NCBI RefSeq assembly: GCF_013388945.1
Contig: NZ_JACAEH010000024.1
Span: 1-38,748, forward strand
Reading direction: 5' to 3'
Origin: Nitrososphaera sp.
GTDB lineage: Archaea; Thermoproteota; Nitrososphaeria; Nitrososphaerales; Nitrososphaeraceae
Length of the DNA: 38,748 bases
Shown: in pieces, positions 30,474 to 37,492 of the stretch
Numbering within the stretch: the stretch's first letter is position 1
Layout of the letters: each line of letters begins with the position of its first letter
Made by a program: the position numbers and the translations under genes
The notes under the pieces: generated by a model
Databases searched by the model: none
What the model saw: the letters and a program-made list of their open reading frames with translations, nothing else
Told to the model about the DNA's origin: nothing

Positions 30474-31439
30474 GTGGGACGCGCAAAGGGTGGGTCTTTG
30501 AATGGCAGCATATCCATAGTACCGTTTAGGTGCATCGTGTTCGACGGCGATGGCATGGCCACTTTTTCGGTGCCGGAAAAAGCATTTGAGGAGCTGTCAA
30601 AAGACCCAGAAAGGTACTGCGCCGTGCTGATCAACACCAAGATGAACGTCCATCTTGCGCACGAACTGTTCAAAGCCAAAAAAGTGAACAGCCACCTCAA
30701 GGTTCTGCTGGCGGCAGGTGTAAAGGAAAGTGACGGAGACCTTCTGGGCATGGTGGATAAGGTCATACCTGCGGGAACGAAAAAGGAGCATGTATTTGAG
30801 ATAATTGCTGAACTGTACGGTTCAACAGAGTCCTCCAGAAAGAGGCTCTTGCTCGAGAAATTAGAGTTCCTGGGCGCCCAGCAGCAAGCATTCAAGAATT
30901 TTTCAGCCAGCCAGCTGGAAGGGATCGTGACTAGCCTTACAAACCTACTATCCAGGCACACAGCCAAGACGGGCGGCATCAAGCTTTCCACGGTGGACAA
31001 AAAAGTGCTCAAAAGCCTTATCACGTCGAAGGGGCACGTTTCTTCCCTTCTTCTTTCGAAGAAGCTGGGCATCCCGCTAACAACAGTCCAGCGGCACAGG
31101 AAGAGGCTCGAAAAGGAATTTCTGGAATACTCTTACAATCTGAAAGTCGCCAAATTCGGTCTACGTAACGCAGACATTCTGATTCACATCAAAAGCGGAA
31201 CCATGGAAAAAGTTGCAGAGCGTCTCCTTGAGTTGGACCGGGTTGTGAGTGTCAGCCGCGCCATAGGCACCAGTAACATTGACCTTCGAGCGAGGATAAT
31301 TTTTCAAGATAACCTCGAACTCTCAAAGTTCATCGAGAAGGTGAGGGCCATTGACGGAGTGGGTGAGGTGATGTGGATGGAGAGCATACAGCAGATGGGA
31401 AGCAACGATCTCCCGTTCCTGCGCATTCTCGAAGACTGA
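30474..31439 (+). CDS. Transcription regulator: receiver-like domain, HTH, AsnC-type domain
   Basis: A 321-aa protein. Residues ~15-105 (FRCIVFDGDG...AVLINTKM...HLKVLLAAGV...VDKVIPAG) follow the alternating strand/helix pattern of a response-regulator receiver; the usual phospho-acceptor Asp position reads LINTKMN, so it is probably a degenerate, non-phosphorylated receiver. Residues ~170-225 form a helix-turn-helix (LLSKKLGIPLTTVQRHRKRLEKE). Residues ~235-310 match an AsnC/Lrp-type ligand domain (ADILIHIKSGTMEKVAERLLELDRVVSVSRAIGTSNIDLRARI). The combination is unusual. GTG 30474 or TTG 30498 could be the start. Targets unknown; the neighbouring surface genes are candidates. Confidence 0.8.
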   Translation: MGRAKGGSLNGSISIVPFRCIVFDGDGMATFSVPEKAFEELSKDPERYCAVLINTKMNVHLAHELFKAKKVNSHLKVLLAAGVKESDGDLLGMVDKVIPAGTKKEHVFEIIAELYGSTESSRKRLLLEKLEFLGAQQQAFKNFSASQLEGIVTSLTNLLSRHTAKTGGIKLSTVDKKVLKSLITSKGHVSSLLLSKKLGIPLTTVQRHRKRLEKEFLEYSYNLKVAKFGLRNADILIHIKSGTMEKVAERLLELDRVVSVSRAIGTSNIDLRARIIFQDNLELSKFIEKVRAIDGVGEVMWMESIQQMGSNDLPFLRILED

Positions 31440-31819: not shown

Positions 31820-32524
31820 TCAGCTCCTCGTCTTTAGGGAGACGGGGTTCTTTGGAGGCTCGGTATCAAACACTATCTGCTTTAGGTAGAAAATGACTGG
31901 TTGCAGATCCTTGCCTTTCTTCACTTCAAACCCAAGGGGATCAGTTATGTTTCTGAGATCCTTGCCGCGCAGGTCAATTTCTACGACTTTCCATTCTTTG
32001 TCAAGTACGATGTTCTCTGTTTCCGACTCAAAACGCATGTTCTTGAAAAGCTTGTCGGCCACGCCGTTACCCTTCATGACTTTTCCTGCGACTTTGAATG
32101 AAATGGACTCGCCACCCTGTTCACCCATAATGAAGAACTTGGCCCTTTTTGCACCCGTGAGGTCGTAACCTGTATCATCTCTGAAAGAGAACGCAGAGAC
32201 ACCCTGCCCGCCCGGTATGTACATAACCCTTGTGCAGAATTCGCAGTGTTTCGTATCGTCGATGTAGTTTTCATAAATCTGTAGCTGGTACGAACCCGTC
32301 GCCCCGTCTCCAGCAATCCTTTTTGCGCGATAAAGCTCATTTATCTCGACAGGAAGTATCTTTGCGCTTGCTTCCGAGATAACAGGCTTATCGCCTTGAA
32401 GGAGGAAATCCAGAACATAGGAAGGACTGTAGGCCGCGGCTGCCAAGGCGGAAAGTACTGCCGCAGAGCCAACCGCAACAAGCAAGAATAGCGAGACTTT
32501 CACACTGTTGAACCTTTTTTCCAA
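31820..32524 (-). CDS. Exported protein with galactose-binding-like domain
   Basis: 234 aa. N-terminal hydrophobic segment ~10-32 serves as signal or anchor. The mature part contains FSFRDDTGYDLTGAKRAKFFIMGEQGGESISFKVAGK and a later KEWKVVEIDLRGKDL, the pattern of galactose-binding-like/CBM-type domains in which DLTGA and KFF..GE strands line a sugar site. One CEFC pair may form a disulfide. It is probably a surface-anchored glycan-binding protein, consistent with the neighbouring discoidin proteins. Divergent from the copper oxidase. Family assignment by pattern only. Confidence 0.7.
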   Translation of the reverse strand: MEKRFNSVKVSLFLLVAVGSAAVLSALAAAAYSPSYVLDFLLQGDKPVISEASAKILPVEINELYRAKRIAGDGATGSYQLQIYENYIDDTKHCEFCTRVMYIPGGQGVSAFSFRDDTGYDLTGAKRAKFFIMGEQGGESISFKVAGKVMKGNGVADKLFKNMRFESETENIVLDKEWKVVEIDLRGKDLRNITDPLGFEVKKGKDLQPVIFYLKQIVFDTEPPKNPVSLKTRS

Positions 32525-32631: not shown

Positions 32632-32644
32632 TCTTTAATAATTG
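32632..32644 (+). promoter_or_regulatory. TATA box of copper-radical oxidase gene
   Basis: ctttaataattga lies about 28 nt before ATG 32672, supporting that start over TTG 32642. Confidence 0.45.
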
Positions 32645-32671
32645 AATGCAGTATCCCTTGCGAATCCGTGC

Positions 32672-34633
32672 ATGTCTGCAATAATTTCCAGAAGAGATTT
32701 TCTGAGATTTCTTGCAGCCGGAGCGTCTACCGTGGCATTTGGGAGCCTGTTTGCACTCGTTCCTTCTGGAAAGGGCGGCCGTACAATCGCGCCCACCTAT
32801 GCCCAATCCGCGGGTTCCTGGTCTATCGGTCCGAGCACCAGCATAGTTGCCATCCATGTATCTCTTTTGCATAACGGCAAGATGCTCATAGTCGCAGGAT
32901 CAGGCTACCATACGTCATTCCAGAACGGTCCTTTTTATGCAAAACTTGCAGATCCAAATACGGGCACGGATTCGAGTCTGGAGCTTTCAGAAGACTTGTT
33001 TTGTTGTGGTCACGCGCAATTGGATAACGGGAACATTCTCGTGGCAGGGGGCACGAAGGACTGGGACACGGTGGCAGGCGACGGAAAGTGGCACGGGCTC
33101 TCCTCGGCGTACGAGTTTGATGTAGCCACTGGCCTCCTAGTCAAGACAAAGGCCATGGCCCACGGAAGGTGGTATCCAACCTGCGTCACTATGGGTGACG
33201 GAAAAGTTGCGGTTGTTGCCGGTTATGACGAGTATGGTTCTGACAACAAGCTCACCGAAGTGTACGACGACAAAGTCAAGTCGTTTACCATAAAGTTCGA
33301 TACAGGGTCAAGCCTCACCTACTGCGTTGGAAACGGCAGCTCGCTTCCGGGCGCCGGCTCGCCCTGCTACGGAGGACCCGGCAACGGTGTCAACCCCTAC
33401 GTCTCACTTTATCCCCGCATGCATCTCATGCCAAGCGGCCTCTTGTTCCTTGGCGGGATGACTCGTAATATGTACACATGGGAGCCTTCCACCGGACGGT
33501 GGAGGTGGGCCGCCAACATGAGCTGGCCGGGTTGGAGGAGCTATGGCACTTCCGTCCTGCTTCCGCTGCAGAACAGTACCGGCGAAAAAGGCAAGGTGTT
33601 GGTGGCAGGAGGATCTCTGGCTTGGGATCAGCCGGCCACAAACCACTGCGAGATAGCAGACTTTAACGCTGCTCCAAACAACTTCAACCCAGTAATAAGG
33701 ACGGATATTTCCATGTACATGAACTATGCACGGAGGATGACTAACCCAGTCATTCTACCAAACGGCAAAGTGGGAGTATTCGGAGGGGCAGCCATCATGA
33801 ATACGGATCCCGTGATGCCCGCGGAACTGTTCGACCCTGTTACGGAGACATGGACTGTGCTGCCTTCAGCCACCGTACCCCGGGTATACCACTCAGTCGC
33901 ACTGCTCCTGCCCGACGGCCGGGTATGGACCGCAAGCAGCACAGCATCCCGACACGACTGGGAACTCAGGACAGAGCTTTTCAGTCCCGACTATGTTTTA
34001 AGCGGTTCAAGACCTGTCATCAATGGCACTCCAACCGTGGGGGGGTATGGTGGTTCCATCTCCATTCCCACACAAAATCCGCAATCGATATCGTCCGTTT
34101 CGATGGTGCGTATATCTAACACGACCCACCACTATAACACCGAGCAGAGACTCGTCTGGCTTGGTATAACTTCCAAGGGCGGGGGCAACGTCACAGTGTC
34201 TGCCCCGCTGAACGCCAACCTTGCGCCGCCGGGTTACTACCTGATCCACGTTTTGAATGGAAACACCGTGCCCTCAGAGGGAAAGATAATCAAGTTTCCA
34301 GGAACAGGAAGCATCATCAACGACAAGCTCCCGCCCCTTCTGAGGATTGCTTCCCCCTTTCCGGGCTCTGTCATCAAAGGTCCTTCCGGCAACGTCCCGG
34401 TCAACGTGAGCGGAACCGCTACGGATGCCGGAACGGGTGTCAACAATGTGATAGTGAAGGTGGGATCCAATCCGTACACTTTTGCTACTCCAAACGGACC
34501 AGGAGACTGGTCGGTGTGGTCTTTTTCAGATAAGGTGACGTCTGCCGGTCCCACAACTATAAAGGTCATTGCGACAGACAAGGCAGACAACAAGGTGTCG
34601 CTGTCGATACCCGTCACCATTGCCTTCAACTAG
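32672..34633 (+). CDS. Tat-exported copper-radical oxidase (galactose-oxidase family)
   Basis: 653 aa. Tat signal SRRDFLRFLAAGAS (6-19). A seven-bladed Kelch-type beta-propeller follows. Copper-radical centre residues align by motif to galactose oxidase: DLFCCG with C111 (Cys228), GRWYPT with Y168 (Tyr272, the Cys-crosslinked Tyr), VYHSVALLLPDGRV with Y406/H407 (Tyr495/His496), and TTHHYNTEQR with H486 (His581). The C-terminal part after 550 is an Ig-like domain like that of the protein at 28440. The enzyme would oxidise primary alcohols or aldehydes outside the cell with O2, making H2O2. Tat export suits folding before export. Substrate unknown: galactose oxidase and glyoxal oxidase share these ligands. 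Confidence 0.9.
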   Translation: MSAIISRRDFLRFLAAGASTVAFGSLFALVPSGKGGRTIAPTYAQSAGSWSIGPSTSIVAIHVSLLHNGKMLIVAGSGYHTSFQNGPFYAKLADPNTGTDSSLELSEDLFCCGHAQLDNGNILVAGGTKDWDTVAGDGKWHGLSSAYEFDVATGLLVKTKAMAHGRWYPTCVTMGDGKVAVVAGYDEYGSDNKLTEVYDDKVKSFTIKFDTGSSLTYCVGNGSSLPGAGSPCYGGPGNGVNPYVSLYPRMHLMPSGLLFLGGMTRNMYTWEPSTGRWRWAANMSWPGWRSYGTSVLLPLQNSTGEKGKVLVAGGSLAWDQPATNHCEIADFNAAPNNFNPVIRTDISMYMNYARRMTNPVILPNGKVGVFGGAAIMNTDPVMPAELFDPVTETWTVLPSATVPRVYHSVALLLPDGRVWTASSTASRHDWELRTELFSPDYVLSGSRPVINGTPTVGGYGGSISIPTQNPQSISSVSMVRISNTTHHYNTEQRLVWLGITSKGGGNVTVSAPLNANLAPPGYYLIHVLNGNTVPSEGKIIKFPGTGSIINDKLPPLLRIASPFPGSVIKGPSGNVPVNVSGTATDAGTGVNNVIVKVGSNPYTFATPNGPGDWSVWSFSDKVTSAGPTTIKVIATDKADNKVSLSIPVTIAFN

Positions 34634-34783: not shown

Positions 34784-35671
34784 ATGCACCATACGAACGG
34801 CAATTCTAAAAATGAGAGGATACTGGTCATCGGACTGGGACAAATTGGATATAGCAACGCAGAGTACATGACATCGCTTGGATTGCATGTTGATGGGTTT
34901 GACATCAGCGAAAAGGCGATTCACAGAGCCTTGAGGAGCGGCGTTATCGAAAACGCAGCGAAGGACTTTTCAAATTATGACTATTACATAATATGCGTCT
35001 CCACGCACAACCCCGATGACATGTTTATCCCGCACCTGGACGGCCTTTTCGATGTAGCGTCAAGAATATCAAGGGAGGGCAAGACGGGCGCCCTGGTTGG
35101 GATAGATAGCACAATTACAAGAGGAACTACCCACAAGATAGCAGCGATTCTTAGGCACAGGCTGCATGTAGTTCATGTCCCGCACCGTTTCTACAGCAAG
35201 GAAAGGCAGGACCATGGGGTCAGGCAGACTCGCGTGGCAGGCGGATTTGACGCGTGCTGCCTGGAAAAGGCCGGACATTTTTACGGAGAGGTGCTTGGCA
35301 TTCCACTGCATCAAGTCAGATCGGCAGAGATCGCCGAACTTTGCAAGATAGTCGAAAATTCGTACAGGTTCATGGAAATAGCCTTTGCAGAGGAGCTGAA
35401 AATATTTTGTGATCGTTCCGGCTTGGACTTTAACATGCTCAAGGAGGCCATAAACACGAAGTGGAACGTGAAGATACTGGACGCCAAGGACGGTATTGGC
35501 GGACACTGCCTTCCCAAAGATAGCCAGATGTTCCTGAACCTGGAAAGAAGCTTGCTGTCTACCAGCATCATCGATGCCGCCAAGAAGGTTGACAGTGAGT
35601 ACAGGCTGCACTTGAGCAACTTGCCTTCCATCTCGCCGGTGCAGCTGGAGACGGATGTCAATGTCCACTAA
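34784..35671 (+). CDS. Short nucleotide-sugar dehydrogenase (UDP-sugar DH family)
   Basis: 295 aa. Rossmann start ILVIGLGQIGYSNA (13-26), then YIICVSTHNPDD, the linker helix AEIAELCKIVENSYRF (181-196) and the active-site GGHCLPKD with C242. These match the first two domains of UDP-glucose/UDP-ManNAc 6-dehydrogenases, which turn the C6 alcohol into a carboxylate with NAD. The usual C-terminal nucleotide-sugar-binding domain (~130 aa) is absent; the protein ends about 50 residues after the active site. It may be a reduced enzyme, or one with another partner. ATG start. First gene of a three-gene cassette. Confidence 0.85.
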   Translation: MHHTNGNSKNERILVIGLGQIGYSNAEYMTSLGLHVDGFDISEKAIHRALRSGVIENAAKDFSNYDYYIICVSTHNPDDMFIPHLDGLFDVASRISREGKTGALVGIDSTITRGTTHKIAAILRHRLHVVHVPHRFYSKERQDHGVRQTRVAGGFDACCLEKAGHFYGEVLGIPLHQVRSAEIAELCKIVENSYRFMEIAFAEELKIFCDRSGLDFNMLKEAINTKWNVKILDAKDGIGGHCLPKDSQMFLNLERSLLSTSIIDAAKKVDSEYRLHLSNLPSISPVQLETDVNVH

Positions 35672-35701
35672 CACGGGTGGACTTGCAGGTGGTTGCCTGA
35701 A

Positions 35702-36481
35702 ATGAATATCCTGGCAATAGGCGCCCATCCAGACGACATAGAGCTGGGTTGCGGAGGTTCCTTGCTCAAGGCGACCAGGGCGGGCCACAAGGTATTCATG
35801 TACGTAGCTACACGCGGAGGCGCGTCCGGAGACCCCGAGCAGCGATGCAAGGAGCTGATGACCTCCGCCAAGTACATTGGCGTTGAAGTGCTCTGGATAG
35901 ACGACTTTGAAGACACCAAGCTGACGGTAGGCAGCAAACTCATCAACCATGTGGAGTACTTTATCCACAAGGTATCGCCTGACATTATATTCACACATTC
36001 CCAGAGAGACTACCACCATGACCACCGCGCAGTGGCTGAATGCACGCTTGAAGCATCAAGGTTCAATCAAAACGTGCTTGCTTACGAGATACCTGTCACC
36101 AAGGATTTTAACCCGCAGGTATACTACAACATTTCAGATGTCATAGACGAAAAGGTCGAGCTTGTCAAGATCTTTTGGTCACAGAAAGACAAGATGTTCA
36201 CGAGGGCAAATGCGATCAAAGGTCTTGCTCAGTTCAGGGCGTTGCAGAGCAGGCTCAACGGAGCCATCACTGCCGTCGAGGGCTTTGAGGTCGAAAAGCT
36301 CTGCTTCTCTCAAGATTTCAGGCTCTTCAAGATGCCACAAAGTCCCCTGCCCGGCTCGGTGATAGGCGACGTGGATACGGGAAACGTCATCGAGTTTGTA
36401 CCAGAATTGCGTGACGCAACGCCAGTCCTTCAGGCAAGGGATGAAAACCGCGCTGTTCAGGCAGGTTCTCCGATGGAGTGA
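35702..36481 (+). CDS. PIG-L/LmbE family N-acetyl-sugar deacetylase
   Basis: 259 aa. The zinc-site motif AIGAHPDDIELGCGG near the N-terminus and HSQRDYHHDHRAV (about residue 100) are the family signatures. Such enzymes remove N-acetyl (or other N-acyl) groups from GlcNAc-type sugars bound to nucleotide, lipid or other carriers. The C-terminal ~60 residues after the fold are extra and low in known motifs. ATG 35702 is preferred; TTG 35693 adds three residues. About 30 nt after the dehydrogenase and 6 nt before the acyltransferase gene, so an operon is likely. Confidence 0.9.
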   Translation: MNILAIGAHPDDIELGCGGSLLKATRAGHKVFMYVATRGGASGDPEQRCKELMTSAKYIGVEVLWIDDFEDTKLTVGSKLINHVEYFIHKVSPDIIFTHSQRDYHHDHRAVAECTLEASRFNQNVLAYEIPVTKDFNPQVYYNISDVIDEKVELVKIFWSQKDKMFTRANAIKGLAQFRALQSRLNGAITAVEGFEVEKLCFSQDFRLFKMPQSPLPGSVIGDVDTGNVIEFVPELRDATPVLQARDENRAVQAGSPME

Positions 36482-36487
36482 CCTGCC

Positions 36488-37492
36488 ATGACCCTCAAGG
36501 ACGCCGCGCCTGCGATAAGGTTTGACCTTGGCAGGGAATGGCTGGCAGAGGAAATAGTAACAAGATTTGATGCAAACTACTTGGTAAACGGCGACGGCAG
36601 GTCTGTGACTGGAGCAAGGTCGCTTGAAAATGCAGGAGAAGACGACCTGGCGTTCTGTTCTTGGGAGGGAGAGAAGGGGAAAAAGCTGATTGCCGAGTCA
36701 AACGCTGGAATCATCCTTTGTCCGTTGAGCCTGCAGAATACGGTTCTGCCCAAAGGGAAAACGCAACTTGTTTTCGTCGAGAACCCTCGCAGGGTATTTG
36801 TCAAGTTCATTAATTCCATCAGGCGCAACAACCCGGCCGCATCTGAAGGATGGATTGCGCCGACGGCGGTAATACACAAAACAGCCAAGCTGGGCTCCCG
36901 CTGCCTGATAGGGAATTTTGTTACCGTGGGGGAGAACTGTGTGATAGGCGATGACACCTCAATCTCTGATGGAGTCCGCCTGTACGGGGAATGCCGCATA
37001 GGCAGCAGGTGCAACATACAAGGCGGCGTTGCCATAGGCTATGACGGCTTTGCATTTGAAAGAGATCGCGATGGAAAGCTCGAGAGATTCCCTCACTTGG
37101 GCGGTGTGATTCTGGAAGATGACGTCGAAGTCTGCGCAAACAGCTCGATAGCCGGTGGTTCGCTGGGCTACACCCTGATAGGACAGGGCACGAAGATAGA
37201 TGCGCTTGTGCACATAGCCCACAATGTGAAAATAGGGAAGGACTGCCAGCTTGCGGCAGGTACAATAATCGGGGGGAGTACGACGATTGGGGATTCGTGC
37301 TGGACCGGACTCAACTCGACACTTAAGAACCAGATAACTATAGGCAACAATGTCCTTGTTGCAGCAGGCGCGTGTGTCACATCCAATGTGCCTGACGGCG
37401 ACGTCGTCGCCGGCGTCCCGGCCAGGTCCATCAAGGACAAAGTAAAGACTCGCGAATTATTCATCATGGTCGGAAAGATGACTGTCAGATAA
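36488..37492 (+). CDS. LpxD-like sugar N-acyltransferase (hexapeptide repeats)
   Basis: 334 aa. N-terminal ~25-115 resembles the LpxD uridine-binding domain (LAFCSWE, NPRRVFVKF). Then a left-handed beta-helix with hexapeptide repeats (~120-315). The LpxD core IDALVHIAHNVKIG is present, with catalytic-type H245, as are YDGFAFERDRDGK and ILEDDVEVCANSSIAGGSL. Bacterial LpxD adds a hydroxyacyl chain to the amino group of UDP-glucosamine in lipid A synthesis; archaea lack lipid A, so another amino-sugar acylation is inferred. It follows a deacetylase, which could supply the free amine. ATG start. Confidence 0.9.
   Translation: MTLKDAAPAIRFDLGREWLAEEIVTRFDANYLVNGDGRSVTGARSLENAGEDDLAFCSWEGEKGKKLIAESNAGIILCPLSLQNTVLPKGKTQLVFVENPRRVFVKFINSIRRNNPAASEGWIAPTAVIHKTAKLGSRCLIGNFVTVGENCVIGDDTSISDGVRLYGECRIGSRCNIQGGVAIGYDGFAFERDRDGKLERFPHLGGVILEDDVEVCANSSIAGGSLGYTLIGQGTKIDALVHIAHNVKIGKDCQLAAGTIIGGSTTIGDSCWTGLNSTLKNQITIGNNVLVAAGACVTSNVPDGDVVAGVPARSIKDKVKTRELFIMVGKMTVR

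Follow-up and report, generated by a model that had tools for sequence, protein, structure and literature searches.

What is a homologue of LpxD, the N-acyltransferase of lipid A synthesis, doing in an archaeon, encoded directly behind a PIG-L-family deacetylase and a nucleotide-sugar-dehydrogenase-like protein? The three genes lie in a 38,748-nucleotide stretch of Nitrososphaera sp. DNA (hereafter the window, meaning the whole stretch analysed), which spans contig C8 entirely, in a genome of 1.99 Mb and 99.3% completeness. The host is archaeal: the ribosomal protein L2 of this genome matches archaeal/eukaryotic L2 chains, and thaumarchaeal markers (e.g. TackOD1) are present in its relatives.

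Three intact genes in a co-directional cassette

The cassette occupies positions 34784-37492 of the window, with all open reading frames intact and co-directional and with intergenic gaps of 21 bp and then 6 bp, an operon-like layout. The first gene (34784..35671, + strand) encodes a short nucleotide-sugar-dehydrogenase-like protein of 295 aa with NAD-binding and central domains and the motifs GLGQIG and GGHCLPKD. The second (35693..36481, + strand; 262 aa), which starts at a TTG at 35693 with an alternative ATG at 35702, encodes a PIG-L/LmbE-family (BshB1-like) de-N-acetylase with the metal/catalytic motifs AHPDD and DYHHDH. The third (36488..37492, + strand; 334 aa) encodes an LpxD-superfamily N-acyltransferase comprising an LpxD-type N-domain, a left-handed beta-helix, catalytic His245, oxyanion Gly263 and a shortened C-terminal tail. 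These identities had been proposed by a sequence-only reading of the locus and hold, all three genes giving Pfam/NCBIfam matches far above chance. The trio is a real, intact cassette assembled from two conserved gene pairs.

Two further genes lie upstream on the same strand. An Lrp/AsnC-type regulator is encoded at 30474-31439 (+), and its relatives (40-44% identity) flank a dehydrogenase copy in another genome (G042, locus L133). At 32642-34633 (+) is a kelch protein with a TAT signal, related to galactose oxidase and to the radical copper oxidase GlxA; it scores 238 bits against the GlxA model, below the GlxA cut-off, and its RWYPT, RVYHS and THHYNTEQR motifs align with the copper and tyrosine ligand regions. 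We regard it as a candidate archaeal copper-radical oxidase.

The acyltransferase is an LpxD-superfamily enzyme distinct from lipid A LpxD

Pfam searches of the acyltransferase returned hexapeptide repeats (6.2e-31) and the LpxD N-domain (1.3e-9). The protein scored 247.2 bits against the LpxD subfamily model PRK00892 (cut-off 207) and 223.8 bits against the lipid A equivalog TIGR01853, below the cut-off of 242.5. A predicted model (pLDDT 78, from a shallow alignment) had LpxD as its nearest solved structure, with a modest or low TM-score; fold searches, here and for the dehydrogenase, served to name the nearest structure only and carry no weight for the substrate.

Residues with known roles in LpxD, namely the catalytic His, the oxyanion Gly and the UDP and ACP contacts (PMC6286764), were followed through an alignment of 42 archaeal rows that represent about 34 distinct proteins, some having been read from two overlapping loci. 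The E. coli LpxD reference used for numbering agrees with a partial stretch in the search output. Equivalents of His239 and of the oxyanion Gly257 are kept in all 42 rows, the window protein included, and His245, which had been named as catalytic before any alignment, does fall opposite E. coli His239. Among the UDP-recognition positions, Phe41 is kept in 39/42 rows, and since it belongs to the uracil-stacking pair some nucleotide binding is possible. Asn44 is found in 1/42, Tyr47 in 0/42 and His276 in 3/42, the first two with moderate confidence because the alignment is gapped in that region. Asn233 is mostly lost and Asp232 mostly kept. At the ACP/phosphopantetheine contacts, Asn310 is replaced by Ile in 42/42 rows and Arg314 mostly by Val or Ile, with no Arg among the commonest residues. 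The C-terminal tail has 20 residues in the window protein versus 32 in E. coli LpxD, and the archaeal proteins form a separate clade in the tree. On these comparisons the window protein belongs to the LpxD superfamily but is no lipid A LpxD. Elsewhere (L056, 7036-7563, - strand), a short LpxD-like protein has the beta-helix without the N-terminal domain; it also occurs in G026 and G042 and forms a clade of its own.

Profile searches of the genome for LpxC (PF03331) and for ACP (PF00550) returned no match, while the same searches were positive in control genomes. The earlier suggestion that the cassette parallels LpxC-LpxD logic, with an unrelated deacetylase and no lipid A, is supported, the missing LpxC match speaking for the last of these points. 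The lipid A pathway itself was rejected on the lack of LpxC and ACP and on the TIGR01853 score. A genuine lipid A-type LpxD, taken over from bacteria with its original activity intact, would agree with the score above the PRK00892 cut-off, but it conflicts with these same three points, with the lost ACP contacts and with the separate archaeal clade, and is extremely improbable. With both ACP and the contacts to it missing, we infer that the donor would be an acyl-CoA rather than an acyl-ACP, and a fatty acyl-ACP is unlikely. The genome encodes a PHA synthase, which makes 3-hydroxyacyl-CoA a possible donor.

Features of the deacetylase and the dehydrogenase

The PIG-L gene matches PF02585 at 1.1e-24 (87.8 bits, cut-off 28.2), and residues H12, D14, D15, H108, D110 and H111 are conserved in the alignment. 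Its best curated model is TIGR04001 (BshB1), but the score of 95.1 bits lies below the equivalog cut-off of 182.5. The characterised PIG-L relatives BshB, MshB and PIG-L act on glycosides.

In the dehydrogenase, the UDPG_MGDP_dh central domain (1.1e-18) and N domain (2.1e-9) are both above the Pfam cut-off, and a Pfam search found no match to the C-terminal UDP-binding domain (PF03720). Judged by length and alignment, this domain is missing from all nine subfamily members compared (9/9); the same nine share a PE-to-PH change in the active-site motif and keep the catalytic Cys motif. UDP-ManNAc dehydrogenases (WecC, NF040825; PDB 4r16, 3ojl) are the best matches in both sequence and fold, at 94 bits against an NF040825 cut-off of 750 and, for the predicted model (pLDDT 66, shallow alignment), with a modest or low TM-score. 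The enzyme may carry out an NAD-dependent C6 oxidation. The window genome has a second copy, about 71-72% identical, on contig C31 (L055, 8506-13368). Its neighbours there are two GT2 genes, which gave chitin-synthase-like matches, and a polysaccharide deacetylase gene (PF01522), with a DegT aminotransferase gene running divergently.

Conservation of the gene pairs in related genomes

The sequence-only reading had treated the three genes as one unit, and comparison with other genomes upheld this in part. The pairing of PIG-L and LpxD-like genes is conserved well above chance, but the complete trio occurs only in the window genome, with no other instance among the matches listed and the regions inspected in 70 genomes of the family. 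An LpxD-like protein is encoded in 33/70 of these genomes; PIG-L matches are present in 52/70 and dehydrogenase matches in at least 52/70, paralogues included in both cases. PIG-L directly adjoins the LpxD-like gene in seven of the 33 full-length LpxD loci (the window, G041, G030, G036, G037, G039 and G008), in both tandem and convergent arrangements. At a generous chance of 0.6% per locus the binomial tail is about 1e-9, a figure that ignores kinship and whose true weight is lower, as related genomes are not independent and the loci amount to about three separate arrangements. The PIG-L proteins of the window and of G041 (contig C3) are sisters in the tree (support 97/95), as are their LpxD-like proteins (support 95/99), and gene order is identical in the two; these matching groupings point to co-inheritance of the pair. 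Elsewhere in the family, the partner of the dehydrogenase gene is a different PIG-L paralogue, with about 33% identity to that of the window, and by gene coordinates the two lie within about 130 bp of each other in at least 16 genomes. Beyond the family, 3 genomes from a second family of the same order had LpxD-like genes, and 2 other genomes of the phylum had more distant ones (398 drawn).

Several PIG-L/LpxD loci have genes for a secreted protein, a GT2 glycosyltransferase, a UDP-GlcNAc 2-epimerase and a GSDH protein nearby. The GT2 is closest to PgaC/IcaA, below cut-off, and the epimerase scores above the cut-off of the WecB model; together they make surface-polysaccharide chemistry likely at these loci. 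No GT2 or WecB partner is present in the window, and this island is also missing from its usual site in the window genome, where the GSDH and archaetidylinositol-phosphate-synthase-like genes are 35 bp apart. The window does encode a secreted protein with a CxxCTRV motif (31820..32524, - strand; function not assigned), relatives of which turned up in only three of the roughly 63 regions inspected, each of them an LpxD/PIG-L locus in another genome.

The close PIG-L gene also has another type of partner. In eight genomes (L106-L108, L110-L113, L123) it adjoins a BshC-like gene, and L107, the one such locus annotated, additionally carries a PelF-type glycosyltransferase (above cut-off), an epimerase and an ATP-grasp gene. 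BshC represents another amine-acylating family. The distant PIG-L paralogue and its dehydrogenase are likewise found near BshC-like and ATP-grasp genes in G007, G008 and G009. At L064, L065 and L066 the dehydrogenase, the PIG-L paralogue, a BshC-like gene and two ATP-grasp genes stand beside an archaetidylinositol-phosphate-synthase-like gene, and these clusters possibly encode a sugar-thiol or cysteinylated glycolipid pathway.

Proposed function and alternatives

We propose, with a probability of about 0.52, that the trio is an amino-sugar acyl-swap cassette for surface glycans, working more probably on a glycoside or lipid-linked sugar than on a free UDP-sugar and with an acyl-CoA donor. As its family suggests, the PIG-L enzyme would strip the acetyl group from a GlcNAc-type sugar; the LpxD-like enzyme would then re-acylate the freed amine from acyl-CoA, using His245 as the base and Gly263 as the oxyanion hole. 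The short dehydrogenase may convert this sugar, or a partner sugar, to a uronic acid by oxidation at C6. The cassette would yield an amino (uronic) sugar with an N-acyl group, destined for exopolysaccharide or a different surface glycan. Within this scheme the two-step exchange, deacetylation and then re-acylation, has the best support; the dehydrogenase step, the sugar, the acyl group and the destination are inferred.

The substrate is where the proposal departs from the sequence-only reading, in which the dehydrogenase product is a UDP-HexNAc uronic acid that PIG-L deacetylates while it is still a nucleotide sugar and to which the LpxD homologue adds a new acyl group ahead of polymerisation. 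The likeness of the dehydrogenase to UDP-ManNAc dehydrogenases, the retained Phe41 and the presence of WecB in PIG-L/LpxD loci all fit such a route. Against it, the missing UDP-binding domain of the dehydrogenase subfamily and the loss of most UDP contacts in the LpxD clade suggest that the substrate is not a free UDP-sugar, and the PIG-L relatives use glycosides. UDP-GlcNAc, the substrate first put forward, is thus doubtful and the route as a whole unlikely. We give a similarly low standing to a chance association of independent genes, with the dehydrogenase working on one glycan, the PIG-L/LpxD pair on another, and nothing but a promoter or a location in common. Since the trio is confined to one genome among the matches listed, the dehydrogenase may indeed serve another pathway, and its paralogue on C31 sits among polysaccharide genes; the tight same-strand spacing and the recurrence of dehydrogenase/PIG-L adjacency in another paralogue set across the family speak for a functional link.

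A still less probable reading places PIG-L on a GlcNAc-inositol or an archaetidylinositol-type glycolipid, by analogy with the synthesis of GPI, mycothiol or bacillithiol, with an LpxD-like or BshC-like enzyme acylating the amine. Several genomes have a PIG-L or LpxD-like gene next to an archaetidylinositol-phosphate-synthase-like gene, the dehydrogenase/PIG-L paralogue pair has this same neighbour in four genomes, and both the BshC-like partners and the best PIG-L model (BshB1) lean the same way. However, the synthase-like gene is part of a conserved, housekeeping-like block that also contains CTP synthase and NAD kinase, for which reason the adjacency may be positional, and in the window genome it neighbours the GSDH gene while the cassette lies elsewhere. 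The BshB1 score falls well under its cut-off, and a query of the window genome for a BshC-like gene, run without a positive control, returned nothing.

The acyl-swap cassette may also be one instance of something broader, although we consider this rather doubtful: a general amine-acylation module of Nitrososphaeraceae-type archaea. Here a single PIG-L clade would expose the amine on a GlcNAc glycoside or a lipid-linked sugar, and that amine would receive different caps depending on the partner enzyme, either an acyltransferase derived from LpxD or a BshC-like ligase; the enzymes would have moved off UDP-sugars and ACP. Such a module would imply amino-sugar glycans, lipids or thiols, acylated or cysteinylated, of a kind not known from archaea.

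The S-layer N-glycan of Nitrososphaera viennensis contains one diacetylated hexuronic acid and four residues proposed as diacetylated hexuronamides (PMC12153357), so acylated amino-uronic sugars exist in this archaeal group. N. viennensis may lack the close PIG-L and the full-length LpxD, and the glycan it is known to make does not bear directly on the cassette; G042 encodes dehydrogenase copies, has the LpxD-like protein in its short form alone and gave no match to PIG-L. A non-exhaustive literature search on LpxD in archaea and on PIG-L with N-acyltransferases found nothing on point, and the literature on ammonia-oxidising archaea that it covered made no mention of these genes. The cassette points to undescribed surface N-acyl sugars in these abundant organisms.

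Comparison with known systems

The dehydrogenase shares its NAD and central domains and the catalytic GGHC motif with UDP-N-acetylmannosamine dehydrogenase, from which it differs by the missing C-terminal domain, a shorter N domain and PH in place of PE. With BshB1, the GlcNAc-malate deacetylase of bacillithiol synthesis (PDB 2ixd, 6p2t), the PIG-L protein has the HPDD and H-x-D-H motifs in common; its partner in the cassette is LpxD-like, in a genome with no BshC-like gene detected, whereas PIG-L proteins of the same clade adjoin BshC-like genes in relatives. Compared with LpxD, the UDP-3-O-acylglucosamine N-acyltransferase of lipid A synthesis (PDB 3eh0, 2iu8, 4ihf), the archaeal proteins retain the domain architecture, the LpxD-type insert loop and the His239/Gly257 equivalents and lack most UDP-pyrophosphate contacts, the aligned ACP contacts and part of the tail. 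The LpxD scaffold appears to have been repurposed in archaea without a lipid A pathway or detectable ACP and paired with a non-homologous deacetylase, and the cassette would be a case in which the lipid A scheme of deacetylating and then re-acylating had been arrived at independently.
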